From Idiomarina sp. (GTDB taxonomy: Bacteria > Pseudomonadota > Gammaproteobacteria > Enterobacterales > Alteromonadaceae), in assembly GCA_020831965.1 (NCBI GenBank), contig JAFIFP010000010.1, positions 52,195 through 116,194 on the forward strand: 64,000 nt of DNA, given 5' to 3'. The notes beneath the pieces were generated by a model. The model searched no databases. It had not been told where the DNA came from and saw nothing but the letters and a program-made list of their open reading frames with translations. Within the stretch, counting starts at the first letter, position 1, and every line of letters begins with the position of its first letter. The position numbers were made by a program, and so were the translations under genes. Shown piece after piece: positions 62,688 to 63,815 of this stretch.

Positions 62688-63422
62688 ATGATTCGAATGC
62701 CTCAAATTGTTCCTCTTATTATCGGTAGTATCGCATTGCTCTCTGTCATCAGTTCAGCCCCTTTATTCCGCCAAGGCTCGATTAGCATTGAACAAGGTTG
62801 GTCACTAATTTATTTGGGCTGGGGACTTGGTATGTTAGGAGTGAGCGCAATTGTCTGGGCCGTCAGTCATGAACGTGCACTGCTAGTAAAGCGCCCACCG
62901 ATACTCGTGTTAGGAACAGCAACGAGTCTCGGGGCACTCGTATTGGCCACCGCATTAATATACCCACGCCATACGACTCCGTCGCTCTCAGATGTCAGTA
63001 CTGACGTCTTTGATCCTCCAGAGTTCGCTTTACTGGCGCAACGCAGAGATGCAGCAGGCGCAACTTTAGCATTCGATTTAGCTACAGGACCTTTGCAACG
63101 TGAAGGTCTTCCCGACGTGATCCCGATGCAGTTCCCATCCGACCGAGAAACACTCTATTTAACCTCACAGCGTGTGGTTCAGCGTTTGGGTTGGCAGCTA
63201 GTAGGAGCGAGTTATCAGGAAGGACGCGTTGAAGCACAGGCCACCACTCGGTGGTTCGGGCTTACTAGCGATATTGTTATTCGCATTCAGGCCGACGGCC
63301 GCCAAACGCGAGTCGATGTGCGGAGTGCATCACGTCATGACCTTAACGACGCAGGTGCGAATGCTCGTTTTATTCGCCAATATCGGAACGATATAAATCG
63401 CCAGCTTGGCGTTACGCATTAG
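62688..63422 (+). CDS. DUF1499 membrane protein
   Basis: 244 residues. Three membrane helices fill the first 95 residues (IVPLIIGSIALLSVISS, LIYLGWGLGMLGVSAIVWAV and ILVLGTATSLGALVLATALI). The C-terminal DUF1499 domain (about 140-244) follows: RVVQRLGWQLVGASYQEGR, EAQATTRWFGLTSDIVIRI and VRSASRHDLNDAGANARFIR. Function unknown. It converges on the tRNA repeats. Confidence 0.87.
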   Translation: MIRMPQIVPLIIGSIALLSVISSAPLFRQGSISIEQGWSLIYLGWGLGMLGVSAIVWAVSHERALLVKRPPILVLGTATSLGALVLATALIYPRHTTPSLSDVSTDVFDPPEFALLAQRRDAAGATLAFDLATGPLQREGLPDVIPMQFPSDRETLYLTSQRVVQRLGWQLVGASYQEGRVEAQATTRWFGLTSDIVIRIQADGRQTRVDVRSASRHDLNDAGANARFIRQYRNDINRQLGVTH

Positions 63423-63433
63423 AAGTTTGGGGA

Positions 63434-63738
63434 CGAATAAGCAACCGAAGTAGATAAGAGAAACAAAATGGTCGGCGAGACTGGGTGAGGGCCGCCCGGA
63501 AATTGCACTGCAATTTCAGGCCCGAACGCGAGGCCATGGATGGACGAGCCGGACACATGCCACAGGGATGTATAAGTAACCGAAGCAGATAAGAGAAACA
63601 AAATGGTCGGCGAGACTGGGTGAGGGCCGCCCGGAAATTGCACTACAATTTCAGGCCCGAACGCGAGGCCATGGATGGACGAGCCGGACACGTGCCACAG
63701 GGATGTATAAGCAACTGAATCAGATAAGAGAAACAAAA
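63434..63738 (-). repeat. 135-bp tandem repeats derived from the tRNA-Pro 3' end
   Basis: Exact copies of the last 16 bases of tRNA-Pro lie at 63469-63484 and 63604-63619, and the real one at 63739-63754, so the period is 135 bp. Each fragment is followed, in the direction of tRNA transcription, by the same spacer of about 119 bp; the two full units differ at only a few bases and the last copy is cut after 35 bp. Each spacer can fold the hairpin GAAATTG-N5-CAATTTC. This fills the 316-bp gap between DUF1499 and tRNA-Pro and resembles the repeats behind E. coli tyrT. No protein gene is supported here. Confidence 0.9.
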
Positions 63739-63815
63739 TGGTCGGCGAGACTGGATTCGAACCAGCGACCCCTTGGACCCAAACCAAGTGCGCTACCAAG
63801 CTGCGCTACTCGCCG
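63739..63815 (-). tRNA. tRNA-Pro (TGG)
   Basis: 77 nt including CCA. It starts CGGCGAGTAGCGCAGCTTGG, has anticodon loop TTTGGGT (anticodon TGG) on a CTTGG/CCAAG stem, and T-arm GGTTCGAATCC. It is last in the Arg-His-Pro operon. The E. coli argX-hisR-leuT-proM operon has the same order with an extra tRNA-Leu. Confidence 0.98.

Follow-up and report, generated by a model that had tools for sequence, protein, structure and literature searches.

On balance, we think that a dispersed structured element, present in two tandem copies, accounts for the repeats adjoining the tRNA-Pro gene in the window (the whole 64,000-nucleotide stretch of DNA analysed). A GG in the T arm of tRNA-Pro is the likely site of insertion, the element lies on the opposite strand, and its RNA is predicted to bind CsrA via two GGA-loop hairpins per copy. 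The tRNA-Pro gene itself is intact (anticodon TGG; 63739..63815; identified by ARAGORN, with 63.9 bits for the Rfam tRNA model) and is on the minus strand, so that the array 'behind' it extends towards lower coordinates; the array adjoins the gene directly. Two ungapped direct repeats of 135 nt each (63430-63564 and 63565-63699) are 96% identical, and a third copy of 55 nt (63700-63754) overlaps the end of the gene; a chance origin of ungapped 135-bp repeats at this identity is far beyond expectation. The 16-base sequence TGGTCGGCGAGACTGG, i.e. the antisense of the tRNA-Pro 3' end, is present at 63469-63484 (minus-strand copy, the outermost presumed footprint), at 63604-63619 (minus-strand copy, between the two elements) and within the gene at 63739-63754; these bases are identical at the three places, and trailer sequence is copied with them. 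A tail-like stretch beginning GGGACGAATAAGCAACC (63430..63468, plus strand) is probably the end of an older unit; its identity to the two further 55-nt copies is 93% and 91%. These results agree with the first-pass annotation in that the 16 terminal tRNA-Pro bases recur at an exact 135-bp period (63469, 63604 and 63739), that the units are near-identical with a truncated third copy, and that one difference between them, G/A at 63510/63645, lies within a hairpin, namely the inner hairpin of the arm P1 described below.

Given that repeats are error-prone in assembly, and that the last base of the window is also the end of its contig (C4), which stops 63 bp past tRNA-His, the array might be considered an assembly artefact, or else a functionless neutral tandem duplication behind the tRNA. 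We regard this explanation as highly improbable: simple assembly error is disfavoured because the units differ at several positions, and the same kind of element is found at RNA genes of other genomes, with arrays also present in the single-contig genome G021. As 135 is a multiple of three, the units are traversed by a 126-codon minus-strand ORF (63419-63799) that repeats every 45 residues; it brings to mind the annotated tpr ORF of E. coli rtT and is probably a by-product.

Each 135-bp unit is a copy of a dispersed element, about 105 nt long, whose order on the strand opposite to tRNA-Pro is GGGTGA, the arm P1 (about five closing pairs), GAACG, the hairpin P2, TGG and the hairpin P3. Copy 1 (63483..63586) and copy 2 (63618..63721), both on the plus strand, score 72.0 and 71.0 bits, respectively, with the covariance model R1 and 68.2 and 67.7 bits with the model R2, the window units belonging to the training sets of both models. 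P1 of copy 1 (63489..63523) consists of GGGCC/GGCCC enclosing the inner hairpin GAAATTGCA/TGCAATTTC, with pairs that covary family-wide, and P1 of copy 2 (63624-63658) has a single change with respect to it, at 63645. P2 is at 63528..63549 in copy 1, with the loop motif CATGGATG and one G-A stem mismatch, and at 63663-63684 in copy 2. P3 of copy 1 (CACAGGGATGTA, 63561..63572) includes ACAGGGATGT, corresponding to the ACARGGAUGU of the CsrA SELEX consensus, RUACARGGAUGU, as given in PMC7652899; P3 of copy 2 is at 63696-63707. The GG of the presumed insertion target, in the antisense T arm of tRNA-Pro, is at 63753..63754 on the plus strand, where CTGG is followed directly by ATTCGAACC. With single-sequence folding, the window units fold no better than shuffled sequences (z -1.07 and -0.35).

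The first DNA search gave matches in 6 of 58 genomes, including that of the window. A pattern built on the P2 region only returned 36 stretches in named genomes, including those of Aliidiomarina, Alteromonas, Aestuariibacter, Aliiglaciecola, Lacimicrobium, Alkalimonas, Halothiobacillus and the Solemya velum symbiont, as well as of Methylococcaceae, Chromatiales, Thiotrichales and Natronospirales. Excluded from these stretches were L050, L056 and L065 (judged by eye to be chance coding hits), L054, L061, L063 and L084 (cut by contig ends), L053 (a duplicate of L055) and one unit of L049 (lacking GGTGA); 32 seeds then yielded the alignment A1 and, from it, R1. The stronger R1 matches provided the alignment A2, and R2 was built from 122 aligned matches. 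R1 matches at least 21 of 76 related genomes at E 0.05 and at least 16 at E 0.001, and R2 at least 21 of 274 genomes of the class (Gammaproteobacteria) at E 1e-4, the window's genome being included each time; these counts are lower bounds because the filters were strict and a limited number of candidates was scored per genome. The numbers of R1 matches per genome at E 0.05 (and E 0.001) are 21 (19) for G029, with the most copies in one genome at the stricter threshold, 20 (15) for G021, 15 (15) for G031, 10 (4) for G012 and 3 (3) for the window's own genome, G000. The first-pass annotation had proposed a search of related genomes for the spacer, and our searches place the element beside tRNA and 5S rRNA genes of other genomes; a related copy also lies near 5S rRNA in the window's own genome (C1:773-875). 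The second tRNA-Pro copy of that genome (C12:242-320, locus L194) is without an element-model match, and an R2 match is likewise missing at all 15 congener tRNA-Pro loci (L176-L190). No element was found in a sequence-level search of plasmids and phages, and an Rfam scan of 17 sources (the window end, 7 loci and a further 9 loci) placed no family at gathering score on the element. In G021, a five-copy array with a 119-bp period (L142, G021:C1:2398693-2399290) follows a terminator-like sequence and has no called tRNA next to it.

Across the family, the stems covary while the loops stay constant. Covariation was assessed on A2 with a consensus structure specified by the analyst, shuffled alignments and a slid structure being used as controls. 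Paired cells amount to 75.3%, compared with 55.6% in the shuffles and at most 36.0% with the slid structure, and 332 cells are altered on both sides, compared with 111.5 and at most 61, respectively, part of this covariation leaning towards the structure since the alignment had itself been fitted to a related model. A further measure, how many pairs change on both sides, is weak: there are 13 such pairs, compared with 11.6 after shuffling, and 13 is attained in 30 of 500 shuffles. Each of the five P1 pairs shows at least four kinds of standard pair, and two positions of P2 form a tandem G-A/A-G in 83 of 118 rows and are mostly Watson-Crick in the remainder. With respect to strand, G-U pairs outnumber A-C mismatches by 55 to 20 over 12 pairs (one loop-closing pair supplying 27 and 7 of these, respectively), and the plus strand, i.e. 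the folded sense, is more stable than its complement in 94 of 112 cases.

Loop statistics were compiled over 90 clusters at 85% identity, with four sequences of fewer than 80 letters excluded. The stems of P2 and P3 vary between cluster members, with 16 different 3-bp arms at the loop in P2 and 15 in P3, and the loop is NGGANG, or near to it, in most. A GGA hairpin with a net stem score of at least 3 is present in 80 clusters for P2 and 69 for P3, and absent in 10 and 21, respectively. Among the scoring clusters, in all of which GGA was required, the surroundings of the P3 motif read C (91%), A (91%), N, GGA, N, G (96%), and those of the P2 motif C (79%), A (44%; G in 31%), N, GGA, N, G (97%). 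CA(N)GGANG occurs in P3 of all 32 seeds, this motif lying outside the seed pattern. Model hits lean towards GGA loops because the survey models contain them; in a held-out set of 36 elements, i.e. 40 from the class survey minus four alike to the training set, CA(N)GGANG is found in P2 of 29, in P3 of 29 and in both of 24, and is missing from one or both loops in 12, compared with 3 occurrences in 107 control segments. PMC6849547 gives CANGGANG as an Rsm-binding motif, and GGA hairpin loops with the CANGGANG/ACARGGAUGU consensus, at more than one site, are expected of a CsrA-sequestering RNA and are present in the element. csrA was found in all 16 genomes tested, that of the window having two. 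Judged from these motifs, the RNA of the element likely acts as a CsrA decoy.

Comparisons of flanks and neighbours used 113 of the 122 matches, after removal of two loci as duplicates and of seven rows as partial or weak. The last 15 bases up to the first G of the element recur within 400 bp downstream in 63 of 113 elements, compared with 20 of 113 control words, some recurrences of which sit in tandem arrays; elements of one array were counted separately, and the counts take no account of shared ancestry. The corresponding values for the class set are 23 and 8 of 40. A tRNA lies within 700 bp downstream of 50 elements, 41 of which have a duplicated flank, in 39 cases ending at GG, although the compared word includes the first two letters of the element, GG, so that the frequency of GG here and in the target consensus is partly conditioned. 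In 32 of these cases the tRNA has the same direction; 28 of the copies stop at the D-loop GG (tRNA position 18 or 19), one at position 51 (T arm), two at an AG at position 15 and one at position 2. The duplicated length in the same-direction cases is 16-30 bp in 25, spanning from close to the tRNA 5' end as far as the D-loop GG, 56 bp in one, 60 bp in one and at the 62-base comparison limit in five; a duplication of 99 bp occurs at another gene. We do not claim a target-site duplication of fixed length. All nine antisense tRNA cases, including the two window units, end at GG, and the antisense target of the window, GG followed by ATTYGA, is also found at other tRNAs (L125, L137, L222, L231).

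Other elements adjoin 5S in either direction, or lie within P2 or P3 of other copies or within type I-F CRISPR repeats, in the latter case at the array edge. In L153 (991-1676, G062), TTTCTAAGCTGCC...TGTGG is joined to GTGAAG, compared with an intact ...TGTGCGG followed by CAGTGAAC, and in L169 (987-1218, G061) GTTCACTGCCACACAGGCAGCTTAG is joined to GTGACG or GTAACG. Because other elements thus carry tRNA 5' ends, 5S or CRISPR-repeat pieces, the tRNA-end copies in the window are most simply taken as putative insertion footprints that leave the gene intact, and the suggestion of the first-pass annotation that they serve as a tRNA-maturation decoy is not borne out. From this distribution we infer that the element is mobile.

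Duplicated flanks reaching up to GG, seen also at CRISPR repeats and at the P2 and P3 loops of the element itself, together with tandem arrays, patchy occurrence and the presence of both orientations, would also suit a miniature element that functions purely at the DNA level, its hairpins being read as single-stranded DNA by a trans-acting transposase, with the loop GGA as cleavage or target site and the RNA as a by-product. We consider this possible, but doubtful. Over 46 distinct sites the target is GG followed by A (46%) or T (37%), and the C, A and downstream G of the P3 loop are present at only 26%, 20% and 37% of them; since the target is without the C, A and G that frame the P3 GGA, targeting alone does not explain the loops. 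The element's own GGA loops do serve as insertion targets in L069, L071 and L153, and part of the loop conservation may therefore be at the DNA level. A search for Y1 transposases (PF01797) gave one match in the window's genome and none in G021, G058, G020 and G061, all of which have elements (G021 despite 20 R1 matches at E 0.05); the absence in these four genomes would speak against the DNA-level explanation, as does the orientation of the element relative to its neighbours. No mobilising enzyme or autonomous form of the element came to light, the search having been directed at Y1 transposases. With ORFs called by a simple rule and one element counted per locus, the upstream neighbour is on the element's strand in 57 of 82 loci and on the opposite strand in 25; for loci without a close RNA gene, the same-strand fraction is 33 of 50. 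The TGA/TAA of GGGTRA is the stop codon of a same-strand upstream ORF in 7 of 113 elements (L115, L118, L120, L123, L126, L083 and L068; 5-base overlap).

The conserved structured strand is opposite to tRNA-Pro, with model matches on the plus and the tRNA on the minus strand; the window element is antisense to tRNA-Pro, and the tRNA transcript would therefore carry the complement, without GGA loops. The small RNA put forward in the first-pass annotation is retained in altered form, as an RNA proposed to come from the opposite strand and to bear CsrA-type hairpins. A DUF1499 gene (62688..63422, plus strand; Pfam PF07386, E 1.2e-16) lies 61 bp upstream of element copy 1, and read-through of this gene would transcribe the element in the folded sense; a simple scan for terminator-like sites and a simple consensus scan for sigma-70-like promoters each found none on the plus strand between 62600 and 64000. 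In 28 of 84 loci a same-direction RNA gene begins within 100 bp downstream, which would place the element in a tRNA leader. We propose that the element would insert at the GG in the antisense T arm of tRNA-Pro, each insertion copying the end of the RNA gene so as to keep the host gene intact, and that the 135-bp array would then have formed by duplication of the whole unit. Plus-strand RNA would arise by DUF1499 read-through, the four hairpins of the window array may titrate CsrA dimers and, where an element is in the leader of a same-direction tRNA, the decoy would be produced along with the tRNA.

More tentatively, and as a proposal that we would not yet expect to hold in full, the element may be a mobile CsrA decoy, i.e. 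a miniature element spreading through the Gammaproteobacteria that sets pairs of CsrA-binding hairpins into structured-RNA loci (tRNA, 5S, CRISPR repeats and itself) at GG, copies the end of the host gene and so ties CsrA activity to stable-RNA synthesis, with the E. coli tRNA-linked repeats and the dual rrn terminators arising from the same process. The family offers a testable answer concerning both of the latter, namely GG insertion with copying of the RNA-gene end, and a CsrA-type hairpin pair as the cargo. If the RNA does bind CsrA, many genomes would hold a dispersed, copy-number-variable control layer over a global regulator that has been overlooked by annotation.

REP/REPIN sequences with their RAYT transposases are short dispersed hairpin elements. 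The element described here is likewise short, dispersed and made of hairpins, but it is longer and has a three-part structure; a REP/RAYT origin was disfavoured, since the presence of a Y1 transposase does not follow element copy number in the five genomes named above. An E. coli ERIC sequence (L247, 280-299) carries ACTGGGGTGAGCGAACGC, which is near to the start and middle of the element (GGGTGAG ... GAACGC); ERIC membership was rejected, with the one ERIC copy tested scoring 4.3 bits for R2 with filters off.

In searches of the open-licence literature on CsrA sites in dispersed repeats, tRNA-linked repeats and RtT RNA, PMC8144298 was the one paper found directly on the subject. It uses the name 'tRNA-linked repeats' for an E. 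coli class, which dates from 1978; it describes these repeats as without known function and terms the dual terminators of rrn operons puzzling. The E. coli repeats, including rtT (tyrT/tyrV, RF00391), are the closest known system. In them, as in the window array, units in tandem adjoin a tRNA or rRNA gene, and every unit carries part of that gene's end, 18-19 bp of the 3' end in E. coli and 16 bp in the window; the first tyrT repeat likewise starts with GG followed by GTGAG, which is a lead rather than a test. On the strength of this shared architecture, the array might be an rtT-like tRNA-Pro repeat, the tRNA strand of which yields a small RNA or a decoy in tRNA maturation, and PMC8144298 suggests RNase E processing of one such RNA, RrB, at the tail copy. 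We consider this explanation unlikely. The E. coli repeats run with the tRNA, whereas the window element, on its conserved strand, runs against tRNA-Pro, and the element family, unlike the E. coli repeats, also involves tRNA 5' ends, antisense ends and CRISPR repeats; the copies of tRNA 5' ends, 5S or CRISPR repeats are left unexplained by a 3'-end decoy. The Rfam RtT model (RF00391) recognises the E. coli repeats but has no match in the window, and the best match of R1/R2 on a repeat at E. coli tyrT and rrnB was 6.9 bits (E 0.72, filters off), compared with 7.2 bits for a nar gene stretch. Membership of the E. coli class is thus unsupported; the analogy with tyrT/rtT drawn in the first-pass annotation stands for the architecture of tandem units with tRNA end pieces, but does not extend to detectable homology.

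The RrA, RrB and RrF small RNAs belong to E. coli rrn operons, and PMC8144298 describes them only in Enterobacteriales. RrB is an E. coli tRNA-linked repeat lying between the two rrnB terminators; as reported there, CsrA was the most enriched protein in an RrB pull-down and bound with a KD of about 100 nM in vitro, and the CsrA shift was gone when three GGA motifs were changed. The phenotypes reported in that study were modest, and the CsrA-binding scores of the 19 E. coli repeats that belong to tRNA operons were below 0.01 in the analysis presented, binding not being predicted for them. RrA/RrB/RrF resemble elements of our family in having two flanking terminators downstream of 5S, a copy of the 5S tail and GGA hairpin loops. 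L003/L162 has the rrnB T1-T2 layout, consisting of 5S, a terminator, a 5S-like tail ending in GTAGG, the element, the rest of the 5S tail and a terminator, and the 5S-associated copy in the window's own genome (L002/L174, G000:C1:773-875) mostly follows it, with a less exact second 5S-like tail. RrA/RrB/RrF differ in being without an R1/R2 match. CsrB, CsrC and RsmX/Y/Z share with the element repeated GGA hairpin loops of the CANGGANG consensus; CsrB has about 18 sites according to PMC7652899, whereas the element has two per unit, in copies that are dispersed beside other genes.
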